Source: a virus. Taken from it: 56,167 nucleotides of DNA. Of the stretch, positions 36,711 through 48,165 are shown one piece after another (position 1 is the stretch's first letter; each line of letters opens with the position of its first letter). The notes under the pieces were generated by a model. The model saw nothing but the letters and a program-made list of their open reading frames with translations, was not told the origin of the DNA and made no database searches. The DNA is taken from positions 1 through 56,167 of IMG/VR virus record IMGVR_UViG_3300035698_003823, one strand, 5' to 3'. The position numbers and the translations under genes are program-made.

Positions 36711-36771
36711 AATTATTTTCCGAATGGTAAAGATTTAATATACATCATCATTGCATGTATCCTAAATAAGT

Positions 36772-36778: not shown

Positions 36779-36798
36779 ATATTTATAAGGAGAAAACA

Positions 36799-37524
36799 AT
36801 GGCAATAGGTAAAAGAAAATCAAAGTATACAAGAGAGATACTTGAACCTTTGGTGCAAAATAATCTTTCTATGGTGTGTGTAATAAGAGATTTAGGTTTA
36901 AAACCTTCTGGTGGGAATCATTCAAATATATCGAGAATAATAAAAGAACTAAAAATAGATACTTCTCACTTTACAGGACAAGGACACCTAAAAGGTAAGA
37001 CTCATAACTGGACAAAATCAATTCCTTTAGAAGAAATACTTGTTGAAGATTCAAATTATAGTAGACATAATTTAAAGAAAAGATTATTAGAATTAGGTTT
37101 ATTACAAAATAAATGTTCAGAATGTGGAATATCAGAATGGAATGGAAAACACATTTCAATTCAAATAGATCATAAAAATGGTATTCATAACGATAACAGA
37201 ATAGAAAACTTGAGGATGCTCTGTCCAAATTGCCATTCTCAAACAGATACATTTTCAGGAAAATCAAACAAGCGAGAGAAAAATAAAAGGACAGTAAAAA
37301 TAAAAAAGATAATATGTCCAAGATGTTTAAAAAATTACAAAAATGAGAGATCAAAAGTTTGTATAGAATGTTACAAAAAATCTATTAAAAGAAAATTTGA
37401 TCCACCAATAAAAGAATTTAAAAATAAAATTGAAGAATTAAAAGGAAATATGTCTGCTGTTGGGAGATTCTATAAAGTTTCTGATAACGCAATAAGAAAG
37501 AGAATTCAAAAATATAATAATTAA
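36799..37524 (+). CDS. HNH homing endonuclease
   Basis: A 241-residue protein. The HNH core is CSECG...IDHKNGIHNDNRIENL..LCPNCH (residues about 108-150). An N-terminal helix-turn-helix-like region, a zinc knuckle CPRC...CIEC and the tail AVGRFYKVSDNAIRKRI follow the pattern of the three relatives here. The stop lies two bases before tRNA-Leu. Confidence 0.85.
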   Translation: MAIGKRKSKYTREILEPLVQNNLSMVCVIRDLGLKPSGGNHSNISRIIKELKIDTSHFTGQGHLKGKTHNWTKSIPLEEILVEDSNYSRHNLKKRLLELGLLQNKCSECGISEWNGKHISIQIDHKNGIHNDNRIENLRMLCPNCHSQTDTFSGKSNKREKNKRTVKIKKIICPRCLKNYKNERSKVCIECYKKSIKRKFDPPIKEFKNKIEELKGNMSAVGRFYKVSDNAIRKRIQKYNN

Positions 37525-37526
37525 AT

Positions 37527-37602
37527 GCGAGTGTGATGGAAAGGATTACATAATTGATTTAGAATCAATTTTTTGCAGGTTCGAATCCTGTCGCTCGTAC
37601 CA
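37527..37602 (+). tRNA. tRNA-Leu (TAG), short variable loop
   Basis: Acceptor GCGAGTG/CGCTCGT, D-stem ATG/CAT, anticodon arm ATTGA-TTTAGAA-TCAAT, T-loop TTCGAAT, discriminator A, CCA encoded. TAG reads CUA leucine codons. The variable loop has five bases, whereas leucine tRNAs are normally class II with a long arm (as at 49579). Confidence 0.8.
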
Positions 37603-37610
37603 AATTAAAT

Positions 37611-37683
37611 ATCGGGTAGTCTCTCATGGTGGGGGAACTGATTGCAAACCAGTTAAATTAAGGTTCGATTCCTTTACCCGATT
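37611..37683 (+). tRNA. tRNA-Cys (GCA)
   Basis: Acceptor ATCGGGT/ACCCGAT, discriminator T as expected for Cys, anticodon loop TTGCAAA in a stem with one A-C mismatch, T-loop TTCGATT. CCA is not encoded. Confidence 0.8.
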
Positions 37684-37728
37684 ATCTTTAAAAAAACTAT
37701 TATTGCACCCTTAATTTCATACTACCAT

Positions 37729-37736
37729 ACTAAATA
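37729..37736 (+). promoter_or_regulatory. Late-like promoter ACTAAATA
   Basis: ACTAAATA lies 33 bases before the HNH start at 37770. Confidence 0.5.
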
Positions 37737-37769
37737 CTAATGTATAGTTAAAAAGTATAGGAGATTAAT

Positions 37770-38498
37770 ATGGGTAATAAAAGTGTTTTCGAAAGTTACA
37801 CAAAAGAAGAAGTCCAGGATATGTTGAATGATTCTTCTTCATTTAAAAAAGTTTTAGAAAAGGTAGGACTTTCAACTAATGGAGGTGAATGTACCAGAAC
37901 ACTAAAAATGTATATATCTAAAAATAATTTAGATTTAACTGAATTAGAAATTAATAGAACTAGAGAAAGAAAAAGTTTATTAGTATATTGTTCAAGAGGT
38001 AAGAAAAGAAAAGATGAAGATGTTTTTGTTAAAGACTCAGATTACGCAAGAAAGCATATTAAGAATAGAATTATAAAACAGAAATTAATTCCATATGAAT
38101 GTAGTAATTGTGATATAAAAGACAAATGGAATAGTAAAGATTTAGTTCTTATATTAGATCATATTAATGGAATCAACAATGATAACAGAATAGAGAATCT
38201 TAGATTCGTTTGTCCTAATTGTAATAGTCAACTTGAAACTCATTGTGGTAAAAATAAAGCAATAAGAAAACATTGTAAAGATTGTGGAAAAATAATAACT
38301 AAAATGTCAGAAAGATGTAAAAAATGTAGTTGTGTTTTCCATGGTGTTAAACAAAGAAAATTTAATCCAAAATCAGAAGATCTTGAAAATAAAATTAAAG
38401 AATTAAATGGAAATATATGTGCTGTTGGAAGGTTCTATGAAGTTTCCGATAATGCAATAAGAAAGAGAATTAAAAAATTAAATATACCTATAGTGTAA
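37770..38498 (+). CDS. HNH homing endonuclease overlapping tRNA-Trp
   Basis: A 242-residue protein. HNH core CSNCD...LILDHINGINNDNRIENL..VCPNCN (residues about 111-150), zinc knuckle CKDCG...CKKCS, and tail AVGRFYEVSDNAIRKRI. The last five residues (NIPIV) and the stop are encoded by the 5' end of tRNA-Trp, an overlap of 15 bases. AGGAGATTAAT precedes the ATG. Confidence 0.88.
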   Translation: MGNKSVFESYTKEEVQDMLNDSSSFKKVLEKVGLSTNGGECTRTLKMYISKNNLDLTELEINRTRERKSLLVYCSRGKKRKDEDVFVKDSDYARKHIKNRIIKQKLIPYECSNCDIKDKWNSKDLVLILDHINGINNDNRIENLRFVCPNCNSQLETHCGKNKAIRKHCKDCGKIITKMSERCKKCSCVFHGVKQRKFNPKSEDLENKIKELNGNICAVGRFYEVSDNAIRKRIKKLNIPIV

Positions 38499-38557
38499 CG
38501 GTAACACGTTTCTCTCCAAAAGAAAAAATCAGGGTTCAAATCCTTGTGGGTGTGCCA
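38484..38557 (+). tRNA. tRNA-Trp (CCA)
   Basis: Acceptor ATACCTA/TGGGTGT (three wobbles), D-stem GTGT/ACAC, anticodon arm TTTCT-CTCCAAA-AGAAA, T-loop TTCAAAT, discriminator G, CCA encoded. Its first 15 bases are coding sequence for the HNH protein. Confidence 0.9.
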
Positions 38558-38566
38558 AAATTAAAT

Positions 38567-38638
38567 GGGGTGATAGTGACAACGGTAACACATTGCTTTT
38601 GCACGGCAAAGATTGGGGTTCGATTCCCCATCACTCCA
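38567..38638 (+). tRNA. tRNA-Ala (TGC)
   Basis: Acceptor GGGGTGA/TCACTCC with the G3-U70 alanine identity pair, anticodon arm TTGCT-TTTGCAC-GGCAA, T-loop TTCGATT. CCA is not encoded. Confidence 0.9.
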
Positions 38639-38720
38639 CATTTTTTAAAGTCATAACATCCGTAACTTCAACAACTTACGAAAAAGAATAAAAAAAGATT
38701 GATTAATTCTTATTTTTAAC

Positions 38721-38749
38721 TTGCAAAACTTTCTGGATTCTGTTATACT
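38721..38749 (+). promoter_or_regulatory. Sigma70-like promoter of the tRNA region (copy A)
   Basis: TTGCAA and TATACT are 17 bases apart, with AATTCTTATTTTTA directly upstream of the -35 box. A boxA lies 20 bases downstream of the -10. Confidence 0.85.
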
Positions 38750-38768
38750 TTAGATATAAAGATTAAGT

Positions 38769-38785
38769 TGCTCTTTGACAATTTA
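38769..38785 (+). promoter_or_regulatory. boxA-like antitermination element 1
   Basis: TGCTCTTTGACAATTTA differs at one base from the E. coli rRNA leader boxA region TGCTCTTTAACAATTTA. It follows a promoter, as in rRNA operons. Confidence 0.75.
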
Positions 38786-38857
38786 GAAGAAACAAGAATA
38801 AAAAAAGATTAATTATTTCTTATTTTTATCTTGCAAAACTTTCTGGATTCTGTTATA
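38772..38857. repeat. 86-base direct repeat, copy 1
   Basis: Identical to 39031-39116. It runs from boxA through the next promoter, so promoter-boxA units have been duplicated as blocks. Confidence 0.85.
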
Positions 38858-38859
38858 AT
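38831..38859 (+). promoter_or_regulatory. Sigma70-like promoter of the tRNA region (copy B)
   Basis: TTGCAA-17-TATAAT, same upstream element as copy A. It precedes a structured leader (38895-38953). Confidence 0.85.
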
Positions 38860-38894
38860 TAGAAGTATAAGAAACAGCGACAAACAAAAATTTA

Positions 38895-38953
38895 GTGAGT
38901 GAATCGGGACAGGTTATTGTACTAGATGCAATCAGCGACCCTTAGTAACTCAC
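38895..38953 (+). ncRNA. Putative structured leader RNA element
   Basis: GTGAGT and ACTCAC close a 59-base segment with an inner stem (ATTGT/GCAAT). A related segment at 41363-41426 shares GTGAGTGAA at the start and TTAGTAACTCA at the end. No known RNA family is recognised. Confidence 0.35.
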
Positions 38954-39017
38954 GCTCATTATCCGGAAGTTATCTGTACGCTTGGGTAACGCTTTGCGAC
39001 CTTGGCAAGATACTTTT

Positions 39018-39031
39018 AACTTCCGGAAGTT
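39018..39031. repeat. 14-base perfect palindrome AACTTCCGGAAGTT
   Basis: This is the longest instance seen of the dispersed TTCCGGAA motif. It abuts boxA element 2. Confidence 0.7.
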
Positions 39032-39044
39032 CTTTGACAATTTA
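39029..39044 (+). promoter_or_regulatory. boxA-like element 2
   Basis: GTTCTTTGACAATTTA, preceded by the palindrome AACTTCCGGAAGTT. A stem-loop just upstream of boxA recalls the boxB-boxA order of rRNA leaders. Confidence 0.7.
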
Positions 39045-39116
39045 GAAGAAACAAGAATAAAAAAAGATTAATTATTTCTTATTTTTATCTTGCAAAACTT
39101 TCTGGATTCTGTTATA
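39031..39116. repeat. 86-base direct repeat, copy 2
   Basis: Identical to 38772-38857. Confidence 0.85.
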
Positions 39117-39118
39117 CT
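39090..39118 (+). promoter_or_regulatory. Sigma70-like promoter of the tRNA region (copy C)
   Basis: TTGCAA-17-TATACT, followed after 20 bases by boxA element 3. Confidence 0.85.
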
Positions 39119-39137
39119 TTAGATATAAAGATTAAGT

Positions 39138-39154
39138 TGCTCTTTGACAATTTA
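39138..39154 (+). promoter_or_regulatory. boxA-like element 3
   Basis: TGCTCTTTGACAATTTA, identical to element 1. Confidence 0.75.
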
Positions 39155-39481
39155 TATGTTGGGTATAACATGGTTGGTTCAATTCCAACTACTCTCAAAC
39201 TTTTTATTGATTAATGACCTGCAATAGAATAATCGAAACTCAGGTATTGAACGAGTCTACTTAACGGTAGTGTTAAATAAGGTACTCACATTAATTAATG
39301 TTTTTAGCGAGAGATGAGGGTTCAAATCCCTTAGTGGTTTTGGGAATGCTTCTGTTCAAGCAATAATTCCCGTCTTATTTTTCTGGTAATTGAACAGATC
39401 AGAAATTAGAGATAAAATACCATCTGGTGTAACTTGGTTAGCACACTTGCGATATTTATTTAAAAAAGTTCCAAAAAGTTC

Positions 39482-39509
39482 TTGACTTAAAAAAAGTTCC
39501 TGATATAAT
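39482..39509 (+). promoter_or_regulatory. Sigma70-like promoter before tRNA-Ile(TAT)
   Basis: TTGACT-16-TATAAT. It is followed by a leader with TTTAGTTG/CAACTAAA pairing (about 39532-39616) and then a boxA-like sequence. Confidence 0.8.
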
Positions 39510-39531
39510 TAGAAGTATGAAAGTTAAGGAT

Positions 39532-39616
39532 GTGTTTAGTTGCTAAAATAATTCTAGAGCGTAGAAGCGATGAGATAAATTTACAAAGAGACTCATAACG
39601 TTTGTAACAACTAAAT
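39532..39616 (+). ncRNA. Putative structured leader
   Basis: TTTAGTTG near 39532 pairs with CAACTAAA near 39609, enclosing ATGAG/CTCAT. A similar AGTTG...CAACT closure occurs at 41829-41983. It sits between promoter and boxA-like element 4. Confidence 0.4.
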
Positions 39617-39622
39617 ACAATT

Positions 39623-39640
39623 TTGTTCTTTAAAGATTAA
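39623..39640 (+). promoter_or_regulatory. boxA-like element 4 (degenerate)
   Basis: TTGTTCTTTAAAGATTAA keeps the GTTCTTT core but diverges at the 3' side. Confidence 0.5.
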
Positions 39641-39646
39641 ATATCT

Positions 39647-39725
39647 GGACCGGAAAGTTTGGTTAACTCGACGAATCTTATAAGTTTGTGTCTGCATGAG
39701 GGTTCAATTCCCTATCGGTCTACCA
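39647..39725 (+). tRNA. tRNA-Ile (TAT)
   Basis: Acceptor GGACCGG/TCGGTCT, anticodon arm CGAAT-CTTATAA-GTTTG, T-loop TTCAATT, CCA encoded. TAT would read AUA codons, which AT-rich phage genes use heavily. The variable loop is longer than usual (about nine bases). Confidence 0.75.
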
Positions 39726-39734
39726 ATATTAAAA

Positions 39735-39752
39735 TTGTTCTTTGAAAATCTA
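39735..39752 (+). promoter_or_regulatory. boxA-like element 5
   Basis: TTGTTCTTTGAAAATCTA, three bases before tRNA-Lys. Confidence 0.65.
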
Positions 39753-39755
39753 TAT

Positions 39756-39831
39756 ACTTCTTAAGCATTAATTAGTGATGCATCAGACTTTTAATCTGAA
39801 GAAGACGGGGCAGTACCGTCAAGAAGTACCA
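39756..39831 (+). tRNA. tRNA-Lys (TTT), non-canonical elbow
   Basis: Acceptor ACTTCTT/AAGAAGT, D-stem GCAT/ATGC, anticodon arm TCAGA-CTTTTAA-TCTGA, T-stem GACGG/CCGTC, CCA encoded. The T-loop is GGCAGTA and the D-loop has TTAGTG with no GG. Confidence 0.88.
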
Positions 39832-39840
39832 AAATTAAAT

Positions 39841-39933
39841 GTATGTGAGACTACTATTGGTTGTGTAGTGAAGGATTGTAAATCCTTTCCCTTTGTGGTA
39901 ACATTGTTGGTTCGATTCCATCCACATACACCA
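39841..39933 (+). tRNA. tRNA-Tyr (GTA)
   Basis: Class II tRNA: acceptor GTATGTG/CACATAC, anticodon arm AAGGA-TTGTAAA-TCCTT, long variable arm, T-loop TTCGATT, CCA encoded. Confidence 0.9.
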
Positions 39934-40159
39934 AATTGAGTACAGAGAAACAGGTTGGATTCCTGTATATGTTAATCGCATATTCGTCCATTGTTAAGAC
40001 ACTGTACGTTATATTTAATCCGGAAGATATATTGCTTGAATGTCCGAGAATAACGAAGTCTTGGTATGCCCAAATCGCTTCAATATTCCATAAGAGTAAA
40101 GCAATAATGTGGTTCACAGGATAGTGGACGTTGAAGACAGATCCTTCTTGTCTTCCGGA
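39934..40159 (+). other. Intergenic RNA-like stretch in tRNA array
   Basis: No protein gene. It contains ACAGG-TTGGATT-CCTGT (a T-arm-like hairpin at about 39951-39967) and ATATG/CATAT, but no complete tRNA could be drawn. Confidence 0.4.
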
Positions 40160-40177
40160 TTGTTCTTTGAAAATTTA
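40160..40177 (+). promoter_or_regulatory. boxA-like element 6
   Basis: TTGTTCTTTGAAAATTTA, seven bases before the next tRNA. Confidence 0.7.
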
Positions 40178-40183
40178 GCAACT

Positions 40184-40257
40184 ACCTTGGTCGTATAAAT
40201 GGTAGAGTATAACCGGCTTGTGGTCGGTGGGCGGTGGTTCGATCCCACTCTGGGGAA
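40184..40257 (+). tRNA. tRNA-Thr (TGT) or, with a one-base shift, tRNA-His
   Basis: Acceptor ACCTTGG/CTGGGGA with an A-A mismatch at position 1; anticodon arm ACCGG-CTTGTGG-TCGGT reads TGT by position, though GTG is one base later. T-loop TTCGATC; no CCA. Seven more bases on each side (AGCAACT/AGTTGCT) could extend the helix. Confidence 0.6.
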
Positions 40258-40264
40258 GTTGCTT

Positions 40265-40282
40265 TTGTTCTTTGAAAATTTA
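40265..40282 (+). promoter_or_regulatory. boxA-like element 7
   Basis: TTGTTCTTTGAAAATTTA, identical to element 6, just before tRNA-Lys(CTT). Confidence 0.7.
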
Positions 40283-40285
40283 TAT

Positions 40286-40359
40286 GCATCCTTAATTCAA
40301 TGGTAGAATAATTGATTCTTACTCAATTAATGAAGGTCCGATTCCTTCAGGATGTACCA
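40286..40359 (+). tRNA. tRNA-Lys (CTT)
   Basis: Acceptor GCATCCT/AGGATGT, D-stem ATTC/GAAT, anticodon arm ATTGA-TTCTTAC-TCAAT, T-loop TCCGATT, CCA encoded. It reads AAG and complements tRNA-Lys(TTT). Confidence 0.85.
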
Positions 40360-40369
40360 AAGTTTATAT

Positions 40370-40446
40370 GCGGTTGTAGCATAATCGAATAATGCAACAG
40401 ATTTCTACTCTGTAGATTGCAGGTTTGAGTCCTGTCAACCGTACCA
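40370..40446 (+). tRNA. tRNA-Arg (TCT), A19-U56 elbow
   Basis: Acceptor GCGGTTG/CAACCGT, anticodon arm ACAGA-TTTCTAC-TCTGT, CCA encoded. The D-loop has GA instead of GG and the T-loop is TTTGAGT, so pair 19-56 is A-U rather than G-C. It reads AGA/AGG. Confidence 0.88.
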
Positions 40447-40455
40447 AATTAACAT

Positions 40456-40530
40456 TGGGGATTAGTATAGAAGTGAGTACGTCATACTGATAATGTGAAG
40501 AGACAGGAGCGTTACCTGTATCCCCTACCA
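40456..40530 (+). tRNA. tRNA-Ile (GAT), non-canonical elbow
   Basis: Acceptor TGGGGAT/ATCCCCT with a T-T mismatch at position 1, anticodon arm TCATA-CTGATAA-TGTGA, CCA encoded. The T-loop is AGCGTTA and the D-loop contains AAGTGA with no GG. Confidence 0.85.
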
Positions 40531-40594
40531 ATTTATTAAAAGTTGAACTTGTGAAATTCTTTTTACTTTTTTTGATAACTTTCTTATCTAAGGT

Positions 40595-40602
40595 ACTAAA
40601 TA
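40595..40602 (+). promoter_or_regulatory. Late-like promoter ACTAAATA
   Basis: ACTAAATA lies 23 bases before the HNH start at 40626. Confidence 0.5.
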
Positions 40603-40625
40603 CTTATATAAGAAAGGGGAAAGAA

Positions 40626-41186
40626 ATGAGTTATGAAGAAATTAAAAAGTTTAGAAGAAAGAGAAAAAAAGTTATTGTAGAATCTTTTGGAGGTAAGTGT
40701 GGTGTTTGTGGGTATGATAGTTTTTTCAATGCCTTAGATTTACACCATTTAGATTCATCTAAAAAAGAATTTAGTTTATCTTCAAATATTCAATCGTGGG
40801 AAAAGATTTGCAAAGAATTAAAAAAATGTGTAATGTTATGTGCTAATTGTCATAGAGAATTTCATGGAGGATTTATTGAGATTCCAAAAGATATAAGAAG
40901 ATTTGATGAAAGTTTTATTAGTTATTACACTAAAGAAGAAAGATTTTGTCCAGTTTGTAATAAAGATATAACAGATAAATCAATTAAACAATTAACATGT
41001 TCTCAGAAGTGTGCTGATGTTTATTTTCCGAACCGTTGTGTAAGGAAATTTGACCCTACTGAAGAAGAACTTATAAATAAAATAAAAGAATTAAAAGGAA
41101 ATATGTGTGCTGTTGGAAGGTTCTATAAGGTTTCTGACAATGCTATAAGAAAAAGAATTAAAGTTTTAAATGTCTCTGTAGTATAG
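40626..41186 (+). CDS. HNH homing endonuclease overlapping tRNA-Glu
   Basis: A 186-residue protein. The HNH core is CGVCG...LDLHHLD...VMLCANCHREFH. A zinc knuckle CPVC...CSQKC and the tail AVGRFYKVSDNAIRKRI follow. ATG 40626 (AAAGGGGAAAG upstream, after the late box) is preferred to GTG 40551. Its last codons and stop form the first 15 bases of tRNA-Glu. Confidence 0.88.
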   Translation: MSYEEIKKFRRKRKKVIVESFGGKCGVCGYDSFFNALDLHHLDSSKKEFSLSSNIQSWEKICKELKKCVMLCANCHREFHGGFIEIPKDIRRFDESFISYYTKEERFCPVCNKDITDKSIKQLTCSQKCADVYFPNRCVRKFDPTEEELINKIKELKGNMCAVGRFYKVSDNAIRKRIKVLNVSVV

Positions 41187-41248
41187 TGGTCAAATACGCT
41201 TGATTTTCAGTCAAGAGATCGCCCGTTCAAATCGGGTCAGGGATACCA
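41172..41248 (+). tRNA. tRNA-Glu (TTC)
   Basis: Acceptor GTCTCTG/CAGGGAT, D-stem GTAT/ATAC, anticodon arm CTTGA-TTTTCAG-TCAAG, T-loop TTCAAAT, CCA encoded. It overlaps the HNH 3' end by 15 bases. Confidence 0.9.
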
Positions 41249-41251
41249 AAT

Positions 41252-41318
41252 TACATAGCGAGTGTCCGGAATCTCATGAGTTCCGAAAGTAGGTTTGAAT
41301 CCTACCCTCGAAACCAAT
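41252..41318 (+). tRNA. Degenerate tRNA-Met-like gene lacking a D-arm
   Basis: Anticodon arm GGAAT-CTCATGA-GTTCC (CAT), T-arm GTAGG TTTGAAT CCTAC and a terminal A-CCA are intact. Only about 19 bases precede the anticodon arm, too few for acceptor plus D-arm, and the acceptor pairs at only four positions. It is likely a decayed gene. Confidence 0.5.
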
Positions 41319-41322
41319 TAGG

Positions 41323-41362
41323 AAGATATACATATTTCTAGTCAATTGATTGTCTATCTTCC
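41323..41362 (+). other. Hairpin GGAAGATA/TATCTTCC
   Basis: An eight-base inverted repeat with a 24-base spacer, directly before the second GTGAGTG element. It could be a processing or transcription signal; no T-run follows. Confidence 0.4.
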
Positions 41363-41426
41363 GTGAGTGAAAAAAGTTTCGATGAAATTCCTTGACCGGA
41401 AATACTCTGGAACTTTTAGTAACTCA
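41363..41426 (+). ncRNA. Putative structured RNA element, second copy
   Basis: Shares GTGAGTGAA at its start and TTAGTAACTCA at its end with the element at 38895-38953. Inside, AAAAGTT pairs with AACTTTT. The family is unknown. Confidence 0.35.
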
Positions 41427-41432
41427 AAATAT

Positions 41433-41508
41433 TGCGGGGAGGCTGTTGGTTTGCCCATAGTGCCTCATAAGCACTACTACGTGTGTTCGATTCACACCTC
41501 CGCTACCA
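41433..41508 (+). tRNA. tRNA-Met (CAT), initiator-like
   Basis: Acceptor TGCGGGG/CTCCGCT with T1-T72 unpaired, the hallmark feature of bacterial initiator tRNA (C1-A72 in E. coli). Anticodon arm AGTGC-CTCATAA-GCACT, T-loop TTCGATT, CCA encoded. The three consecutive G-C pairs of the classic initiator anticodon stem are only partly kept, so elongator Met is possible. Confidence 0.8.
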
Positions 41509-41516
41509 ATTTAAAT

Positions 41517-41592
41517 GCATCCGTGGTGCAACTGAATAGCACAAGACTCTACGAAAGTCTAGATGAGGGTTTGATTCCTTCCGGATGTACCA
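41517..41592 (+). tRNA. tRNA-Arg (ACG), A19-U56 elbow
   Basis: Acceptor GCATCCG/CGGATGT, D-stem GTGC/GCAC, anticodon arm AGACT-CTACGAA-AGTCT, CCA encoded. D-loop GA with T-loop TTTGATT gives an A19-U56 pair. A34 in ACG is normally edited to inosine by TadA. Confidence 0.88.
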
Positions 41593-41594
41593 TT

Positions 41595-41612
41595 TTGTTC
41601 TTTGACAATTTA
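41595..41612 (+). promoter_or_regulatory. boxA-like element 8
   Basis: TTGTTCTTTGACAATTTA, immediately after tRNA-Arg(ACG). Confidence 0.7.
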
Positions 41613-41623
41613 CATGAAGAGGT

Positions 41624-41668
41624 TACAATAATAATTTTTTACACTGGTTTGTTTTTTCTTATTATTGT
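41624..41668 (+). other. Long hairpin ACAATAATAA/TTATTATTGT
   Basis: A ten-base perfect inverted repeat with a U-rich loop lies between boxA 8 and the next RNA genes. Downstream, 41676-41739 has GGTGA...TCACC resembling a serine-type acceptor, but no complete tRNA could be folded by eye. Confidence 0.45.
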
Positions 41669-41749
41669 GGCAGTTAGATGGTGACGTTCCTGCGAACAGA
41701 ACCAAATCATGCTTGGGGGGAAACTCCTTTGCCTCTCACCATATTAAAT

Positions 41750-41825
41750 GCGTCCTTGGTGTTTAACGATAGCATGAAAGATTTCCAATCTTTTGGTAGC
41801 GGTTTGAATCCGCTAGGACGCTCCA
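41750..41825 (+). tRNA. tRNA-Gly (TCC), A19-U56 elbow
   Basis: Acceptor GCGTCCT/AGGACGC, discriminator T as expected for Gly, anticodon arm AAAGA-TTTCCAA-TCTTT, CCA encoded. D-loop GA with T-loop TTTGAAT. Confidence 0.9.
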
Positions 41826-41828
41826 TAT

Positions 41829-41983
41829 TACTAGTTGAACGGGAAGACAGAAACGTACAGGTGCTTCTTATCACAAGACTGTGACGGCAGAATAATCTTG
41901 GGAAGAATAAGTTGCATACACGGATTCCTTTACTATCCTCGATGTTGACGAAAATCGAGTCTATGGTATAAATCTGCCAACTA
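41829..41983 (+). ncRNA. Putative large structured RNA
   Basis: Nested inverted repeats close on each other: ACTAGTTG/CAACTAGT (outer), GGCAGA/TCTGCC, and CTCGAT/ATCGAG (inner hairpin). The 155-base segment has no reading frame worth calling and lies between two tRNA-Gly genes. It does not match RNase P, 6S or a hammerhead by eye. Confidence 0.45.
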
Positions 41984-41993
41984 GTTTATTTAT

Positions 41994-42067
41994 GCGGATA
42001 TAGTTCAATGGTAGAACTTATGTTTACCAAGCATAGAATGAGAGTTCGATTCTCTCTATCCGCTCCA
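41994..42067 (+). tRNA. tRNA-Gly (ACC)
   Basis: Acceptor GCGGATA/TATCCGC, discriminator T, D-stem GTTC/GAAC, anticodon arm TATGT-TTACCAA-GCATA, T-loop TTCGATT, CCA encoded. Anticodon ACC reads GGU. A34 in a bacterial-type glycine tRNA is rare. Confidence 0.85.
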
Positions 42068-42088
42068 TAACTTTACGAGGAACTTTAT

Positions 42089-42256
42089 ATGAAATCAGTA
42101 CAAGATCTACTTTGTAAGTTAGGTAAACATGATTGGGAAGAAATTAAACTTGTCAGTGAAGTTACTTATGATAAATCAAAAGTAAGAATCTGTAAGAATT
42201 GTATGACTTCTAATAAGTGTAAAGAGAAGAGAGAAGAATATACAGATTGGGAGTAA
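42089..42256 (+). CDS. Small Cys-containing protein (55 aa)
   Basis: A 55-residue frame starting MKSVQDLLCKLGKHDW, with ACGAGGAAC upstream. CKNC...NKCK could form a small zinc site. The stop is immediately followed by the next ATG. Confidence 0.6.
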   Translation: MKSVQDLLCKLGKHDWEEIKLVSEVTYDKSKVRICKNCMTSNKCKEKREEYTDWE

Positions 42257-42433
42257 ATGTGTATTGTAAAAGTTCCGATGACTGATCTTACTGATCTTAC
42301 TGATGGAGGAGAATTAAAAAGAATTTACGATTTATTTAAAAAAGAGATTGTATTTAAAAAAGAATATGATATAATAAGAAGTAAGAAAAGTTTGTTCAGT
42401 ATATTTAAAAGAAAAAGATATGGGAATGTATGA
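42257..42433 (+). CDS. Small basic protein (58 aa)
   Basis: A 58-residue frame starting MCIVKVPMTDLTD, directly after the previous stop and overlapping the next gene by 14 bases. The C-terminus is basic (IFKRKRYG). Confidence 0.5.
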   Translation: MCIVKVPMTDLTDLTDGGELKRIYDLFKKEIVFKKEYDIIRSKKSLFSIFKRKRYGNV

Positions 42434-42761
42434 TTCAGTAGTTTTTAAATGTACAGATCCAGAATGTCCTGAAGGTTGTGTAGAGTTTCAATCTAAAGTA
42501 GGTCCATGTACTTTAAATGAATATGATATAAGTGAAGTTCCTGCGTGTATTGCAGATGATATTTTTGAAACTTTCGGGTTTTGTTCAGAATGTGGAAAAA
42601 CTTATATGATCCACCATGAAGTAGAAATAGATCCTACTGTTAGAATGAAAGTTACTGAAGTTTTAGAAGAACCTTATAAGTGTATTAATTGTAACCGTAA
42701 TATGTATATGACAGGAAACGGTTGTTACAAGTGTGCATTTTGTGAAAGTTACAATGGATGA
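42420..42761 (+). CDS. Zinc-ribbon protein (113 aa)
   Basis: A 113-residue protein starting MGMYDSVVFKCTDPECPEG, with CSECG, CINCN and CYKCAFC further on: three Cys pairs, likely two zinc ribbons. The MGMYDSV opening recurs in small phage proteins of unknown function. Confidence 0.65.
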   Translation: MGMYDSVVFKCTDPECPEGCVEFQSKVGPCTLNEYDISEVPACIADDIFETFGFCSECGKTYMIHHEVEIDPTVRMKVTEVLEEPYKCINCNRNMYMTGNGCYKCAFCESYNG

Positions 42762-42790
42762 AAGTTCCGGAAGATTTTGGAGGAGAAACA

Positions 42791-43006
42791 ATGAAAGAAT
42801 TTGAAATGACTCAAGAGCAATTTGATGAAATTATTGATGCTTGTAAAACAGTCCCTATGATTATGATACAGCGTGGGAATACAAGAACCAAACAAGAAAA
42901 TGCTAATGATGCTTGGGAAAGACTTGGGAAAGTTATGGGGTTTAATCACATGTCTGTGAAACCTTCCGGAAGTGACCTAAAGAAATTCTTTGCAGACGAA
43001 GTTTAA
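42791..43006 (+). CDS. Conserved-looking small phage protein
   Basis: A 71-residue protein starting MKEFEMTQEQFDEIIDACK, with TTTGGAGGAGAAAC upstream. WERLGKVMGFNHMSVKP resembles a small phage protein family of unknown role. An upstream in-frame ATG at 42758 lacks a ribosome site. Confidence 0.65.
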   Translation: MKEFEMTQEQFDEIIDACKTVPMIMIQRGNTRTKQENANDAWERLGKVMGFNHMSVKPSGSDLKKFFADEV

Positions 43007-43015
43007 AAATTAAAT

Positions 43016-43090
43016 ACCGCTTTAGTTCAACGGTTAGAACAAATCATTGTCGATGATTAGATAAGGTTTCGATTACCTTAAGCGGTGCCA
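43016..43090 (+). tRNA. tRNA-Asp (GTC)
   Basis: Acceptor ACCGCTT/AAGCGGT, D-stem GTTC/GAAC, anticodon arm AATCA-TTGTCGA-TGATT, T-loop TTCGATT, discriminator G, CCA encoded. Confidence 0.92.
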
Positions 43091-43115
43091 ATATTAAAGA
43101 AGTATAAGAATTAAA

Positions 43116-43190
43116 CAGAATGTAGTCTAGTGGTAAGACGCAAAATTTGGGTTTTTGAGATCGTGGGTTCGAGTCCCTCCATTCTGACCA
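43116..43190 (+). tRNA. tRNA-Pro (TGG)
   Basis: Acceptor CAGAATG/CATTCTG, anticodon arm CAAAA-TTTGGGT-TTTTG, T-loop TTCGAGT, CCA encoded. Confidence 0.9.
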
Positions 43191-43212
43191 TATTAGTAGT
43201 AAAGGATTACAT

Positions 43213-43283
43213 TCCAGTTTAGTATAATGGTATTATAAAATTCTGTTAAAATTAAGATCGAGGTTCGATTCCTTGAACTGGAG
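43213..43283 (+). tRNA. tRNA-Asn (GTT), copy 1
   Basis: Acceptor TCCAGTT/AACTGGA, discriminator G, anticodon loop CTGTTAA in an AT-only stem with one mismatch, T-loop TTCGATT. CCA is not encoded. Confidence 0.8.
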
Positions 43284-43301
43284 AAATTTTAAAAAATGTT
43301 C

Positions 43302-43348
43302 CTAAAAGTTCGAATCTATCCCCTAAATACAATTAGATAGATTCGAAC
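43302..43348. repeat. 16-base inverted repeat around a late-like promoter
   Basis: AAAGTTCGAATCTATC and GATAGATTCGAACTTT flank a 15-base loop containing CTAAATA. The HNH ribosome site AGGAG lies just after. It could end tRNA transcripts and hide the HNH ribosome site until late transcription starts inside the loop. Confidence 0.7.
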
Positions 43349-43361
43349 TTTAGGAGACATA

Positions 43362-44072
43362 ATGAAGTATACTAAATTAGAACATGGATATATATTAATA
43401 TGGGCAAAGAAAATAGCATATTTAAATAGTAAAAATTGGAAATGTGAAAAGTGTAATAAGAGTGTTATTATAAGTGATTTTGATGTTCATCATTTAAGAG
43501 ATAAAGAGATTGAAATAAAACAAGTCTGGGGATTATCTTCTGATGAAGCGAAGAAAGAATTGGATAAATGCATATTAGTATGTTCAAAATGTCATAGAAA
43601 AATACATTATATAAAACAAGGTGTTAGTAAAAAAAGAGAAAAAGCAAGAGAAATACTTTTTAAGTATAAAGGTAATAATAAATGTGAAGGGTGTAAAGTA
43701 AAGTTTGATTTTATAGATCTTTGTTTTCACCACACTAAACCAGAAAATAAAAAATATAATATATCAAGAGAAATAAATTATAATAGATATCAATCTATCG
43801 AGAAAGTTCAGGAAGATTTACTAGAAGAATTAGACGATTGTGATGTTTTATGTTTTACTTGTCATAGAAAAATACATTTTGATTTTGAAAGATTTGAAAA
43901 TTATAAAGAAGAAATTTATAGAAGAATTAAGTCTTATAAACCTCAAAAGAAATTAAATCATAAGGAAGTTAAAAAATTATTTGATGGAGGTTTAAGACAA
44001 ATTGATATAGCAAGAAAATTAGATGTTAATAAATCTACTATATCAACTATATTAAAGAATTATAAAAAATAA
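43362..44072 (+). CDS. Tandem-HNH endonuclease
   Basis: A 236-residue protein with two HNH units: CEKCN...DVHHLRD...CSKCHRKIHY (about residues 27-86) and CEGCK...CFHHTKPENK...CFTCHRKIHF (about 108-175). The C-terminus LRQIDIARKLDVNKSTISTIL is a resolvase-type helix-turn-helix, unlike the AVGRFY tail of the other HNH genes. The stop is two bases before tRNA-Asn. Confidence 0.85.
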   Translation: MKYTKLEHGYILIWAKKIAYLNSKNWKCEKCNKSVIISDFDVHHLRDKEIEIKQVWGLSSDEAKKELDKCILVCSKCHRKIHYIKQGVSKKREKAREILFKYKGNNKCEGCKVKFDFIDLCFHHTKPENKKYNISREINYNRYQSIEKVQEDLLEELDDCDVLCFTCHRKIHFDFERFENYKEEIYRRIKSYKPQKKLNHKEVKKLFDGGLRQIDIARKLDVNKSTISTILKNYKK

Positions 44073-44074
44073 AT

Positions 44075-44150
44075 ACCATTGTGCGAGACTCGATAATCGT
44101 GCGTCCTGTTAAGACGTTATATCTAGGTTTGAATCCTAGCAATGGTGCCA
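44075..44150 (+). tRNA. tRNA-Asn (GTT), copy 2, A19-U56 elbow
   Basis: Acceptor ACCATTG/CAATGGT, D-stem CGA/TCG, anticodon arm GCGTC-CTGTTAA-GACGT, CCA encoded. D-loop GA with T-loop TTTGAAT. It differs strongly from copy 1. Confidence 0.88.
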
Positions 44151-44153
44151 ATT

Positions 44154-44227
44154 TCTGGAATATTAGTGTAATGGTCGCACAGGCAGGGGTATCTCAGCAA
44201 AGAACGGTTCGATTCCGTATTCCAGAC
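44154..44227 (+). tRNA. tRNA-like gene without a recognisable anticodon stem
   Basis: An eight-base acceptor TCTGGAAT/ATTCCAGA, a D-arm GTGT/GCAC and a T-arm ACGG TTCGATT CCGT are present. The 17 bases where the anticodon arm should be (GGCAGGGGTATCTCAGC) do not pair. It may be a decayed or interrupted tRNA. Confidence 0.45.
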
Positions 44228-44237
44228 CTAGTTACAT

Positions 44238-44308
44238 GCCGGATTATTTCAATGATAGAATGATTGTTTCGTAATCAATAGACAGGGGTTCGATACCTCT
44301 ATCCGGAT
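44238..44308 (+). tRNA. tRNA, anticodon TTC by position (Glu?)
   Basis: Acceptor GCCGGAT/ATCCGGA (mismatch at position 1), anticodon arm TGATT-GTTTCGT-AATCA, T-arm AGGGG TTCGATA CCTCT, no CCA. The loop reads TTC; TCG (Arg) is possible with a one-base shift. The D-loop is GA but the T-loop keeps C56, so the elbow pair is broken. Confidence 0.6.
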
Positions 44309-44356
44309 TATCTTTAATAATGTTTGTTATAATATCCAATTTAAATAAATTAAATT

Positions 44357-44426
44357 CTCCGTGAAGCATAATGTTTGATGCACTACTCTTGTAAAGTAGA
44401 GAAGCAGTTAGATTCTGACACGGAGA
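44357..44426 (+). tRNA. tRNA-Thr (TGT), U19-A56 elbow
   Basis: Acceptor CTCCGTG/CACGGAG, D-stem GCAT/ATGC, anticodon arm CTACT-CTTGTAA-AGTAG. D-loop GT with T-loop TTAGATT gives U19-A56. The T-stem pairs at only three positions; CCA is not encoded. Confidence 0.78.
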
Positions 44427-44537
44427 TCCATTTTCAATCCGGAATCTTACGGTATTTATTAAAGTTTTTGAGTTAATGTACTTTGATAAGTTTCCACCGA
44501 AGGACTGTAAGATTCCGGATATTTACTAGGAAATATT

Positions 44538-44927
44538 ATGAATGATACAAATCTTGAAGTGTTTGTAATTGAAAACAGTAAAGGTGAATATTTTTCTAAA
44601 GAAAGATATAGTAGAATTAATTGGGAAGAAAATATTAAACGAGCAAAGATATATCAATTGCTTGGTTCTGCCAGAGGTAAGGTAACTTCTATAACGAATA
44701 GAAATCCGGAAGATAAGGCATCTTGTATTATTAAACTCACTGTAACATCAACAGAAAGACTTGATGAGACTGAACGTTTAAAGAAAGTTAAGATTAAAAA
44801 GAAATTAGAAATAGCAAAACGATTGGAACGAAAAAAGAAGTTTCAATTAGAGGAAGCAGAAAGAGAACTAAAAGATGCTCAGAGAGTACTTAATGAATTG
44901 AGTAGTGGAGAAATGAATATAACATGA
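44538..44927 (+). CDS. Coiled-coil hypothetical protein
   Basis: A 129-residue protein with an N-terminal beta-rich part and a long charged helix from about residue 75 (RLKKVKIKKKLEIAKRLERK). TAGGAAATATT precedes the ATG. The stop overlaps the next start by four bases. Confidence 0.6.
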   Translation: MNDTNLEVFVIENSKGEYFSKERYSRINWEENIKRAKIYQLLGSARGKVTSITNRNPEDKASCIIKLTVTSTERLDETERLKKVKIKKKLEIAKRLERKKKFQLEEAERELKDAQRVLNELSSGEMNIT

Positions 44928-45112
44928 AACCTAGAATGATTTTAGATGCTGATAAAGATCTGGATGGTTATTCAATGATCAGAAGGGCAGGAAGTATCCT
45001 GAGTGCTCATGGATTCAAAAAAGAGTCTAGAGAGATTCATAAGAAAGCAAAGATGGAAGACTATGATATTTATGTTGCATACATTCTCTTGAAGGAATAC
45101 ATGGACATATGA
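44924..45112 (+). CDS. Small hypothetical protein
   Basis: A 62-residue protein starting MKPRMILDADKDLDGYS, translationally coupled to the gene before (ATGA overlap). Mostly helical. No family is recognised. Confidence 0.55.
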   Translation: MKPRMILDADKDLDGYSMIRRAGSILSAHGFKKESREIHKKAKMEDYDIYVAYILLKEYMDI

Positions 45113-45190
45113 GTATTAATTATAAACAATCTTGGTTGGCAGTAGAAGATCAAATATGAAACTTGATGATATGAATGAGTATGACAAATA

Positions 45191-45385
45191 ATGAAAAAAG
45201 TAAAATGTCCATATTGTGATAATGAAATGCAAACTGATGATCTTTTTGTTTGGTATTGTCTACATTGCTTGGAAAAACATAGATGTCCAGAGTGTGATGG
45301 TACAGGTGATGGTGGACCTGTAATGGGATGTATGTGTAAGAAGTGTCATGGAAGTGGTATGATTAAACCAAAGGAGGGAGAATGA
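45191..45385 (+). CDS. DnaJ-type zinc-finger protein
   Basis: A 64-residue protein with CPYCDNEM, CLHC, then CPECDGTGDGG and CKKCHGSGMI. The CxxCxGxG repeats match the zinc centre of DnaJ chaperones without the J-domain. It may bind unfolded protein or nucleic acid. Two very small overlapping frames (45109-45192) precede it and are not called. Confidence 0.7.
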   Translation: MKKVKCPYCDNEMQTDDLFVWYCLHCLEKHRCPECDGTGDGGPVMGCMCKKCHGSGMIKPKEGE

Positions 45386-45840
45386 TTAGGATACATAAGT
45401 CAGAAACAGCAGATACAAGATCATGTGACTGTACTAAGGTTACTCTAAAAGAACTAAAGCGTTCGTCTAGTAGTCATATTATAGATGTTTATAATGGTTT
45501 GAGGTTCTTTAGAAATATGCTTGAAGGTGCTTCTTTATTGCATGATGTAGATAAAATGACTGATTTGGATTCTTTCCATTCGGACTTTCTAACAGGGTTT
45601 AAGAAGCATGAATGGTGGGATAATCACCGGAAGATTAACAGGCACCACTTGACTAAAGAAGATGGTATTCCTGAAGATGTAAACTTGGTAGACGTTCTGG
45701 AATATATTACTGATTGTACTATGGCAGGAATGGCGCGAACAGGTGAGGTATACGATCTGGGTCTTCCTGATGAGTTGCTACAGAGAGCATTTAAGAACAC
45801 ATGTAAACTACTGAAGGATAATGTGGAGGTAGAAGAATGA
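45382..45840 (+). CDS. HD-like conserved phage protein
   Basis: A 152-residue protein starting MIRIHKSETADTRSCD. SHIIDVYNGLRFF, LLHDVDKM, WWDNHRKINRHHL and VLEYITDC place His/Asp residues as in HD-type metal-binding phage proteins (DUF5662-like). Probably a metal-dependent phosphohydrolase, but inactive variants exist. It overlaps both neighbours. Confidence 0.65.
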   Translation: MIRIHKSETADTRSCDCTKVTLKELKRSSSSHIIDVYNGLRFFRNMLEGASLLHDVDKMTDLDSFHSDFLTGFKKHEWWDNHRKINRHHLTKEDGIPEDVNLVDVLEYITDCTMAGMARTGEVYDLGLPDELLQRAFKNTCKLLKDNVEVEE

Positions 45841-46013
45841 ATAAAATAGAAGAAGATGTTATTAAATATTTTAAAGAAAACAAATGGAAAGATATTATAG
45901 ATGTTTGTGAAGATCTTGATATAAGATTAGAAGAAGCACATACTATTGTTAAGAAACTAGTTTCGAATGATGTTTTGGTTGGGCGTGAAGATGTTGTAAA
46001 GAGTAATGTATAA
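45837..46013 (+). CDS. Small winged-helix-like protein (58 aa)
   Basis: A 58-residue frame starting MNKIEEDVIKYFKENKWKD, overlapping the previous stop (ATGA). The pattern helix-helix-'LVSNDVLVGRED' resembles a minimal winged helix. Its TAA stop is followed in frame by a further 48 codons. Confidence 0.55.
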   Translation: MNKIEEDVIKYFKENKWKDIIDVCEDLDIRLEEAHTIVKKLVSNDVLVGREDVVKSNV

Positions 46014-46160
46014 AAGAGATTAGAAAAACTGTTGTATTGTTGTGATGGTATGCATGATGATTATATCAACAAAAACTATGGATCTGAAAACGATTGGGTA
46101 AGTCATGTTGCTGAAGCATATGGTAATTACGAGAATGTACTTGATGAGGATGAAAAATGA
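46014..46160 (+). pseudogene. Protein-like frame without a start, in frame after a TAA
   Basis: Forty-eight codons follow directly after the TAA at 46011 in the same frame, with LLYCCDGMHDDYINKNYG and a VSHVAEAYGNYENVLDE end. The content looks like a genuine phage protein. No ATG with a ribosome site precedes the conserved part. Readthrough, a TTG start near 46035, or a lost start are all possible. Confidence 0.45.
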
Positions 46161-46381
46161 AGTCAGAAATTAAAGTAGAAGATGATTCGGAATGTGAAAT
46201 TAAATTTCCGTGTCTAATGCGCGGAACTAAAGAAGATATAGTTGTTTTTATGACTGATCAAAGTAGGGGTTATGTTGTATGGGAAGCAAGTGATAAAGAA
46301 TATGGTATTGGATACCACTCAATAAGTTGGACTATGGGATTTTTTGAAATGTTTAAAGATGAAATAATTCTATCTAATTAA
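46157..46381 (+). CDS. Small hypothetical protein
   Basis: A 74-residue protein starting MKSEIKVEDDSECEIKFP and overlapping the frame before it (ATGA). It contains YVVWEASDKEYGIGYHSISW, a strand-rich stretch. The role is unknown. Confidence 0.6.
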   Translation: MKSEIKVEDDSECEIKFPCLMRGTKEDIVVFMTDQSRGYVVWEASDKEYGIGYHSISWTMGFFEMFKDEIILSN

Positions 46382-46393
46382 TGGAGAAATAAT

Positions 46394-46621
46394 ATGCCAG
46401 ATTTAGAAAACTTCCGGAATCTTATGCGTACTCTATTTGAATACTACGCAGATCAAAAGGGTTGGAAACTTTCGGATAATGCGGATAAAGTTATTGAGAA
46501 TATTATTTTAAAGAATGGTAACTGTCCATGTAGGTTTGATAAAGTCCAATGTTTGACTTGTGGTGTTGAAGACGATGTTGAAGAAAAAGGTCGTTGTCAT
46601 TGTAACTTGTTTATAAGATAA
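46394..46621 (+). CDS. Ferredoxin-thioredoxin-reductase catalytic-chain-like cysteine protein
   Basis: A 75-residue protein. NCPCRF, CLTC and GRCHCNLF occur in the order and context of the CPC...CPC...CHC catalytic core of ferredoxin:thioredoxin reductase, which binds a 4Fe-4S cluster beside a redox disulphide. The middle motif is CxxC rather than CPC and spacing is shorter, so it may be a divergent redox or Fe-S/zinc protein. Confidence 0.6.
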   Translation: MPDLENFRNLMRTLFEYYADQKGWKLSDNADKVIENIILKNGNCPCRFDKVQCLTCGVEDDVEEKGRCHCNLFIR

Positions 46622-46683
46622 AATTACTTGGACGTACTGAAAAATCAATTAGAGTTAGATTATGTAGGTTAAATAAATCTTAA
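46622..46683 (+). pseudogene. Homing-endonuclease tail relic
   Basis: A short frame encodes KLLGRTEKSIRVRLCRLN before a stop. GRT..SI..R is typical of the DNA-binding tail of several homing endonucleases. No start or catalytic part is present. Confidence 0.35.
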
Positions 46684-46704
46684 AATATTAATTGGGAGAG
46701 AGAA

Positions 46705-47862
46705 ATGAAAGTATTTTATGAAGATGGAATGAAGGTTCCTATTAAAATGTGGTTAGATGATTTAGAAGATAGTGCTTTACAACAAGCAATAAACCTATCA
46801 AAATTACCATTTGTTTTTAAGCATGTTGCTATATTGCCTGATTCTCATTGCGGATACGGTATGCCAATAGGAGGTGTTGTCGCTACTAAAGGTATCATAT
46901 CTCCTTTTTTTGTGGGTGTGGATATTGGGTGTGGTATGATTGCTATAAAAACAAATATAAAAAATACTAATATAAATTATATAAAAAAGTTAATAGAAGA
47001 AATTAAAAATAGAATACCAGTAGGTTTTAAAAAACAAAACCATAAAAAAATATCAATAGAATTTGATTCAGTTAAACATCTTAATGTTGTAAGTAAAGAA
47101 ATTGATAATGCTGAAAGATCTGCTTGTACTCTTGGATCGGGCAATCATTTCTGTGAATTACAAGTAGATGGAAATGGATATATTTGGTTTATGGTTCATA
47201 GTGGGAGTAGAAATCTTGGAAAGAAGGTTGCAGACCACTATTGTAATATTTCTAAAGAATTAAATAAAAAATGGTATTCTGATATTTCTGATAAGGATCT
47301 TGGATTTCTTCCTTTGGATAGTAAAGAAGGTTCTGATTATTTCAACGAAATGAAATTCTGTGTTGATTATGCATTAATTAATAGAAATCTTATGATTAAT
47401 GAAATAAAAGAAGTTATGGTTAATTATAATAGAAATATTGAGTTTGATAATCCTATTAATATTGCTCATAACTATGCAAGGTTAGAAAATCATTTCGGAA
47501 AGAATGTAATGGTTCATCGGAAGGGTGCGACATCTGCAAAGTTAGGAGAGTTAGGAATTATCCCAGGTTCACAAAGAACTAAATCATACATTGTCGAAGG
47601 TCTTGGTAATCCAGAAAGTTTTTGTTCGTGTTCACATGGAGCAGGAAGAAAAATGAGTAGAACCAGAGCAAAGAAAGAACTTGTTTTGGAAGATGAGATC
47701 AAAAAGATGAATGATCTTGGTATAGTTCACGGAATTAAATCAGTAGATGATCTGGACGAAGCATCCGGAGCATACAAAGATATCGATACAGTTATGGAAA
47801 ACCAGAAAGATCTTGTTAAAATCAAGGTAGAATTATCTCCTCTAGGAGTCATAAAGGGTTAA
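46705..47862 (+). CDS. rtcB: RtcB RNA ligase
   Basis: A 385-residue protein with the RtcB set: LPDSHCGYGMPIGGV, GVDIGCGM, LGSGNHFCEL, VHSGSRNLG, HRKGATSAK and the guanylated His in CSHGAGRKMS. RtcB joins 2',3'-cyclic phosphate (or 3'-phosphate) to 5'-OH RNA ends with GTP and Mn. Near a tRNA array, the natural role is repair of tRNAs cut by host defence nucleases. TGGGAGAGAG precedes the ATG. Confidence 0.92.
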   Translation: MKVFYEDGMKVPIKMWLDDLEDSALQQAINLSKLPFVFKHVAILPDSHCGYGMPIGGVVATKGIISPFFVGVDIGCGMIAIKTNIKNTNINYIKKLIEEIKNRIPVGFKKQNHKKISIEFDSVKHLNVVSKEIDNAERSACTLGSGNHFCELQVDGNGYIWFMVHSGSRNLGKKVADHYCNISKELNKKWYSDISDKDLGFLPLDSKEGSDYFNEMKFCVDYALINRNLMINEIKEVMVNYNRNIEFDNPINIAHNYARLENHFGKNVMVHRKGATSAKLGELGIIPGSQRTKSYIVEGLGNPESFCSCSHGAGRKMSRTRAKKELVLEDEIKKMNDLGIVHGIKSVDDLDEASGAYKDIDTVMENQKDLVKIKVELSPLGVIKG

Positions 47863-47885
47863 TTCATAATCCTTTATGACTTTTA
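47848..47885 (+). terminator. Terminator after rtcB
   Basis: GTCATAAAGG and CCTTTATGAC form a perfect ten-base stem with a 13-base loop, followed by TTTT. The stem overlaps the rtcB stop. Confidence 0.8.
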
Positions 47886-47915
47886 AACTTTTCTCCATTA
47901 TTTTTATTTTTATTG

Positions 47916-47944
47916 TTGACTCTTTGGTCAAAATCGGTTATACT
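47916..47944 (+). promoter_or_regulatory. Sigma70-like early promoter
   Basis: TTGACT-17-TATACT, followed by ATGTATATAAAGATTAGGAGAGAG, a variant of the shared early leader. It drives the rightward early genes from 47995. Confidence 0.85.
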
Positions 47945-47994
47945 ATGTATATAAAGATTAGGAGAGAGACAGGACAAAGATAGGAGAAGTAAAG

Positions 47995-48165
47995 ATGGTT
48001 TATAATTCACTGGAAGAAGCAAAGATCGCTCATCAGGAGTTTATCGTGAGGTTGGACGAACTTGAAAATGAATTTGATGTTAATATAGTTAATGAATATG
48101 ATGTAACATCTTATTATGAAGTATCGTATCGTGATGAGAATGGTAAAATTAAGAATTTTTATTAG
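47995..48165 (+). CDS. Small acidic protein (56 aa)
   Basis: A 56-residue frame starting MVYNSLEEAKIAHQEF, with AGGAGAAGTAAAG upstream. Helix then strands (TSYYEVSYRDENGK). It is first in the early transcript. Confidence 0.65.
   Translation: MVYNSLEEAKIAHQEFIVRLDELENEFDVNIVNEYDVTSYYEVSYRDENGKIKNFY

Follow-up and report, generated by a model that had tools for sequence, protein, structure and literature searches.

Natural tRNAs with exchanged, compensated elbow contacts in a phage genome segment and in other viruses

The canonical elbow of elongator tRNAs comprises three contacts (G18-Ψ55, G19-C56, and U54-A58), and G18, G19, U54, U55, and C56 are textbook invariants. Here, we analyse the tRNA genes of the IMG/VR virus record IMGVR_UViG_3300035698_003823 (positions 1 to 56,167; this whole stretch of 56,167 nucleotides is hereafter the window), in which these letters are exchanged in compensated combinations. 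Suppressor tRNAs selected in the laboratory by the Steinberg group from randomised D- and T-loops reportedly include other elbow combinations that work in Escherichia coli; those libraries are artificial, whereas the present combinations are natural, widespread, and evolving by paired change. DT-armed suppressor tRNAs are defined by a Watson-Crick helix of several pairs between the D- and T-loops; of pairings between these loops, the present analysis covers 18-55 and 19-56. The staphylococcal cell-wall tRNA-Gly lacks G18-G19, a change that weakens its translational use; the present variants share this loss, but their partner bases change to fit, and the window D-loops carry GA, GU, or AG at positions 18-19, in place of the UU of the non-translating staphylococcal tRNA-Gly. 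In reviews, the elbow contacts are called universal or highly conserved (PMC4810234; PMC7912444). Type II mitochondrial tRNAs have no contact between the D- and T-loops and do not conserve G18, G19, or TΨC (PMC7609411), whereas the phage variants retain the contact. The T-loops of T-box riboswitches have G as their second base, as in the A18-G55 class described below, although the T-box is not a tRNA and the likeness covers the G itself (PMC7583486). A literature search, with subscription papers largely outside it, found no report of natural elbow covariation and no paper naming A18-G55, A19-U56, or U19-A56; one paper names C19-G56, in describing a ribosome structure with A-site tRNA, but seemingly means G19-C56.

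The window is probably a piece of a larger phage; it encodes a T4-type major head protein, a head maturation protease, RtcB, and tmRNA, together with a long tRNA cluster. Window tRNAs were located by ARAGORN, by Rfam RF00005 (gathering score 29 bits), and by a purpose-made structure-only scanner, which takes its score from the stems, CCA, and positions 33 and 37 of the anticodon loop and disregards all letters of the D- and T-loops. The initial annotation of this DNA had proposed an exchanged 19-56 pair in five tRNAs, and all five are found at the expected places by the three tools, four with A19-U56 and tRNA-Thr(TGT) with U19-A56; its estimate of about 17 tRNAs with GG and C56 becomes 18 by our count. 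The cluster and these five tRNAs are as follows (D-loop, positions 14-21; T-loop, positions 54-60):

34957..51300, + strand: tRNA cluster, about 29 tRNA genes (34.9-51.3 kb); variants aside, 18 tRNAs read as GG with U55 and C56
40370..40446, + strand: tRNA-Arg(TCT), A19-U56 (G18 A19 / U55 U56); D-loop AATCGAATA, T-loop TTTGAGT; 64.7 bits
41517..41592, + strand: tRNA-Arg(ACG), A19-U56; D-loop AACTGAATA, T-loop TTTGATT; 53.5 bits
41750..41825, + strand: tRNA-Gly(TCC), A19-U56; D-loop TTAACGATA, T-loop TTTGAAT; 36.5 bits
44075..44150, + strand: tRNA-Asn(GTT) copy 2, A19-U56; D-loop ACTCGATA, T-loop TTTGAAT; 46.3 bits
44356..44430, + strand: tRNA-Thr(TGT) copy 2 (Thr 44357), U19-A56; D-loop AATGTTTG, T-loop TTAGATT; 43.1 bits

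The variants share the cloverleaf, loop sizes, and contact places of canonical elongator tRNAs and score 36 to 65 bits in RF00005 (36.5 to 64.7 bits for these five), and differ from them by exchanging the letters of the three contacts in compensated combinations. The Rfam alignments, which are independent of our manual reading, fill the columns of GG with GA or GU and column 56 with U or A; this alternative placement of the D-loop brings back no GG. An encoded NCCA ends all four A19-U56 tRNAs, as well as the four A18-G55 tRNAs listed next. Thr 44357 is weak, with a T-stem of 4 bp including one mismatch and a CCA that requires a one-base shift of the acceptor, and several of the variant window tRNAs fall below the ARAGORN default score.

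The list of elbow variants in the initial annotation holds for the five tRNAs that it named and is incomplete beyond them, as it omits four tRNAs of the A18-G55 type and one with C55, so that 10 window tRNAs differ from the canonical elbow in at least one contact. In the A18-G55 tRNAs the D-loop has AG in place of GG, and G19-C56 is retained. These five, and one further tRNA-like gene, are:

36635..36710, + strand: tRNA-Phe(GAA), A18-G55, A54-U58, G19-C56; D-loop GTTAAGTAA, T-loop AGCGTTA
35548..35621, + strand: tRNA-Gln(TTG), A18-G55, A54-U58; D-loop AATAGTA, T-loop AGCGTAA; 44.5 bits
40456..40530, + strand: tRNA-Ile(GAT), A18-G55, A54-U58; D-loop AGAAGTGA, T-loop AGCGTTA; 43.6 bits
39756..39831, + strand: tRNA-Lys(TTT), A18-G55, G54-G58; D-loop TAATTAGTG, T-loop GGCAGTA; 40.2 bits
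40286..40359, + strand: tRNA-Lys(CTT), GG D-loop, T-loop TCCGATT, with C55 opposite G18
44238..44307, + strand: tRNA-like gene, GA D-loop against a canonical TTCGA T-loop; no CCA; 44.2 bits; the only misfit in the window

Across the window, the D-loop dinucleotide is the one predicted from the T-loop in 28 of the 29 tRNAs read; in 200,000 permutations of the same set this number averages 14.4 and never exceeds 24 (p = 5e-6).

The same fit is found in a much larger viral set. Viral contigs were picked by T-loop pattern scans that left the D-loop unspecified, and the structure scanner was then applied, yielding 2474 unique CCA-ended tRNAs from 319 loci among the matches listed; this set is enriched in variants by design, and its frequencies are not prevalences. 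In an earlier control run of the scanner, reversed sequence gave no CCA-ended matches, against 1612. Without GG the D-loop register is ambiguous, and the test therefore treats positions 18 and 19 together, as one dinucleotide. Bases 55-56 predict this dinucleotide closely: UC goes with GG (99% of 1911 tRNAs), GC with AG (99% of 279), UU with GA (99% of 135), UA with GU (99% of 71), and UG with GC (93% of 41). The predicted dinucleotide is contained in 526 of 538 noncanonical viral tRNAs, the loops of which are thus complementary, unlike the non-complementary loops of type II mitochondrial tRNAs. When D-loops are shuffled within loci, 414 agreements of 463 are observed, against 129 ± 7.3 expected and a maximum of 151 in 1000 shuffles. 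When the T-loop is ignored in assigning positions 18-19, each of the four Watson-Crick pairs is still seen at 19-56 (G-C 2126, A-U 95, U-A 44, and C-G 30; Cramer V 0.63). Position 54-58 holds U-A (2143), A-U (191), G-G (58), A-A (40), or C-A (24). The contacts are modular, as all eight combinations of G18-U55 or A18-G55 with the four pairs at 19-56 occur. The 12 doubly changed tRNAs mostly carry the predicted AC (with G55-G56), AA (with G55-U56), or AU (with G55-A56), and the remainder are able to form U-G or G-U pairs.

Compensatory switches are also seen between near-identical genes. Matching tRNAs by anticodon, at 80% or more identity in the sequence outside the loops, gives 78 disjoint pairs whose members differ in elbow class; in 70 of these, both sides fit. 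The tRNA-Pro(TGG) genes of phages L162 and L511 differ solely by G19A and C56U, and the tRNA-Val genes of L103 and L157 differ by G18A with U55G, plus one acceptor-stem pair. The proposal of the initial annotation that selection acts on the 19-56 pair, and not on its identity, is therefore upheld by the four Watson-Crick pairs at this position, the within-locus permutation, and near-identical tRNAs that differ by a compensating pair.

Relatives picked by the head protein, without regard to tRNAs, comprise 15 contigs (77-82% identity), of which four have tRNA clusters; noncanonical T-loops occur in 30 of the 69 tRNAs of these four, and C19-G56 is present among them (L090 Ser, L094 Gly). The initial annotation had regarded variation of this pair within one genome as rarely seen, which does not hold for phages, and the covariation that it expected of relatives is seen both there and in hundreds of unrelated viral contigs. 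A second set of relatives, picked by RtcB, has noncanonical T-loops in 6 of 36 tRNAs; a search for relatives via a 1029-aa protein (16008-19097) returned none. Of the cultured phages scanned, T5 has a noncanonical T-loop in 1 of 18 tRNAs, and none was found in XacN1 (25 tRNAs scanned) or Muenster (4 tRNAs). All 19 tRNAs found in the phage segment L145 (IMGVR_UViG_3300032397_000008) have a noncanonical T-loop, 18 of these being of the A18-G55 type, and two further phages are largely converted (L169, 10 of 11; L793, 13 of 16 noncanonical). In most phages canonical and variant tRNAs stand side by side, and phage elbow variants span every amino acid.

Evidence that variant tRNAs are used in translation is indirect, and comes from T5 and from bacteria. 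T5 tRNA-Ile1(GAU) is A19-U56 by both the structure scanner and Rfam (65.5 bits), and according to the T5 GenBank record tRNA-Ile1 with a replaced anticodon is an amber suppressor. For Saccharibacteria UBA6664, the scan covered every Rfam tRNA match (37, one of them cut off by a contig end); as UBA6664 is a metagenome assembly that may be incomplete, a single tRNA here means the only one found. Its single tRNA-Cys is A18-G55 with A54-U58, its single tRNA-Gly(GCC) is U19-A56, and its remaining well-scoring tRNAs are GG with UUC. Within the same order, the UUAGA pattern occurs in 15 of 61 genomes, with 15 of 15 matches being tRNA-Gly(GCC) with GU; every AGCGUUA match recovered by the scanner is a tRNA-Cys with AG; and a further two tRNA-Cys have A18-G55 with U54-A58. 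Elbows of the form AAAAGTA or AATAGCA with AGCGTTA were additionally observed in tRNA-His of candidate phyla and tRNA-Val(GAC) of Pelagibacteraceae (L597, L612, L646, L606, and L673). Of the 118 loci from the genome scan, no more than 27 hold variant tRNAs backed by structure, many of the matches being chance or unsupported. Elbow variation is far commoner in phages than in Gammaproteobacteria, used as a control: a canonical-or-TTTGA pattern was found in 181 of 185 genomes and the TTTGA pattern in 6, and the TTTGA matches included one structural tRNA only, without the predicted GA.

We consider it very probable that these are real tRNAs with exchanged, compensated elbow contacts, in which constraint falls on the shape of each contact and leaves its letters free; preservation by selection of elbow shape, rather than of letters, is the best reading of the data. 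Several points weigh against it. The gene at 44238-44307, with GA opposite TTCGA, is a counter-example in the window, albeit probably a decaying gene. In the viral set, GG is absent from 18 of the 1911 U55-C56 tRNAs and the predicted dinucleotide from 12 variants, and blind placement of positions 18 and 19 is noisy. Moreover, the tRNAs are related by descent, which permutations do not remove, a point mitigated by the matched pairs and the hundreds of contigs. Finally, functional support among the phage variants is the note on T5 tRNA-Ile1, a statement in a database record.

Under this shape-based reading, 19-56 takes any Watson-Crick pair, 18-55 takes G-U or A-G, and 54-58 takes U-A, A-U, G-G, or C-A (A54-A58 also occurs), with the three contacts changing nearly independently of each other. 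The 19-56 pair offers its outer face as a stacking surface to the L1 stalk, RNase P, and T-boxes (PMC4810234), and this stacking has been described as not sequence-specific (PMC4919913); judging from these reviews, any Watson-Crick pair at 19-56 should therefore serve partners that stack on the flat outer pair, such as the ribosomal L1 stalk and RNase P. In the apex T-loops of T-boxes, for which the consensus is UGxRA and AGAGA, the second base is G (PMC7583486); by adopting the same base, A18-G55 may convert the tRNA loop to a general UGxRA-like form, a geometry suggested by analogy. We infer the three-dimensional geometry of the exchanged contacts and, beyond the T5 case, that the ribosome and processing enzymes accept them. 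As the usual driver we favour compensatory drift under relaxed dependence on letter-reading enzymes, although this is not proven.

The near-complete conversion of L145 nevertheless suggests selection in some lineages. An altered elbow might hide phage tRNAs from defence nucleases or host enzymes that recognise tRNA by G18-G19, U54, U55, or C56, while a ribosome that reads shape still works. We know of no elbow-reading defence, and none was found; most of the window variants retain U54-U55 or sit beside canonical tRNAs, as canonical and variant tRNAs do in most phages, and the same exchange occurs in essential tRNAs of a bacterium. Such adaptive re-coding is a possible but not a likely explanation, to which the almost wholly converted phages (L145, 19/19; L169, 10/11; L793, 13/16), the impossibility of m5U54 or pseudouridine-55 on variants with A54 or G55, the RtcB encoded by the window phage, and the evasion of tRNA-targeting defences by phage tRNAs via anticodon-loop changes (PMC10264068) lend some weight. 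A further reading, on balance unlikely, is that in some phages the entire tRNA set has gone over to a second elbow type (A18-G55, lacking U55) that is accepted by the ribosome but not by host enzymes or nucleases reading U54, U55, or G18; if true, such a conversion (18 of 19 tRNAs in L145) would give the phage a translation set of its own, in part distinct from the host's.

Acquisition from a cellular lineage in which such tRNAs are already the norm (e.g., Patescibacteria) is improbable. The variant elbows in Cys and Gly of Saccharibacteria, in His of other candidate phyla, and in Val of Pelagibacteraceae are consistent with it, but only two variant tRNAs occur in the single such cell that was analysed completely, phage variants occur on every amino acid, and phage tRNAs switch class in single steps; T5, in E. 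coli, is a partial counter-case with its one variant. Decay of weakly constrained phage tRNAs through A+T-ward mutation in dying genes, as the missing CCA or weak stems of some window tRNAs (Thr 44357, 44238) might imply, is highly improbable because it predicts one-sided mismatches, which are scarce (18/1911 U55-C56 tRNAs without GG), while A+T drift does not yield C19-G56, A18-G55, or G54-G58, and variants have strong stems and CCA and include single-copy essential tRNAs. Equally hard to credit is that the association is an artefact of common descent or of the way the loops were aligned: the tRNAs do share ancestry and their D-loop register can shift, but the dinucleotide test and blind placement make no use of the T-loop, the Rfam alignments concur, and near-identical tRNAs of the same anticodon switch class repeatedly.

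Other features of the cluster were observed alongside the tRNAs. The RtcB RNA ligase gene (46705-47862) adjoins it, with viral-contig homologues that are 45-63% identical. Open reading frames for HNH-type endonucleases (36799-37524, 37770-38498, 40551-41186, and 43362-44072) overlap, or stop a few bases before, the 5' end of the next tRNA (Leu, Trp, Glu, and Asn, respectively), a placement that looks as if they had been inserted at tRNA 5' boundaries; an AVGRFY...SDNAIRKRIK-like tail is common to several of them, and 40551-41186, for which there is no Pfam HNH match, is assigned to this type by resemblance to its neighbours alone. The motif GTTCTTTGA(A/C)AATTTA occurs seven times, near-identical, in spacers of the cluster (38770-41612, + strand) and resembles the boxA antitermination element of rRNA operons. 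A 105-nt direct repeat is present in three copies (38681-39154; 73-96% identical to the first copy), two of which end with the boxA-like motif. Short tRNA-like remnants lie at 35635-35690 and 41258-41316; one has acceptor and anticodon-like arms and lacks a recognisable T-arm, and the other has a TTTGAAT T-arm and no D-arm.

The variants receive reduced Rfam and ARAGORN scores, and counts of viral tRNAs are therefore probably underestimates. For tRNA more generally, natural changes made in step provide the covariation evidence that invariance of the elbow had denied, and sets of natural variants define the permitted contact geometries. The variant tRNAs are, furthermore, ready-made probes of which partners read the letters of the elbow and which read its shape.

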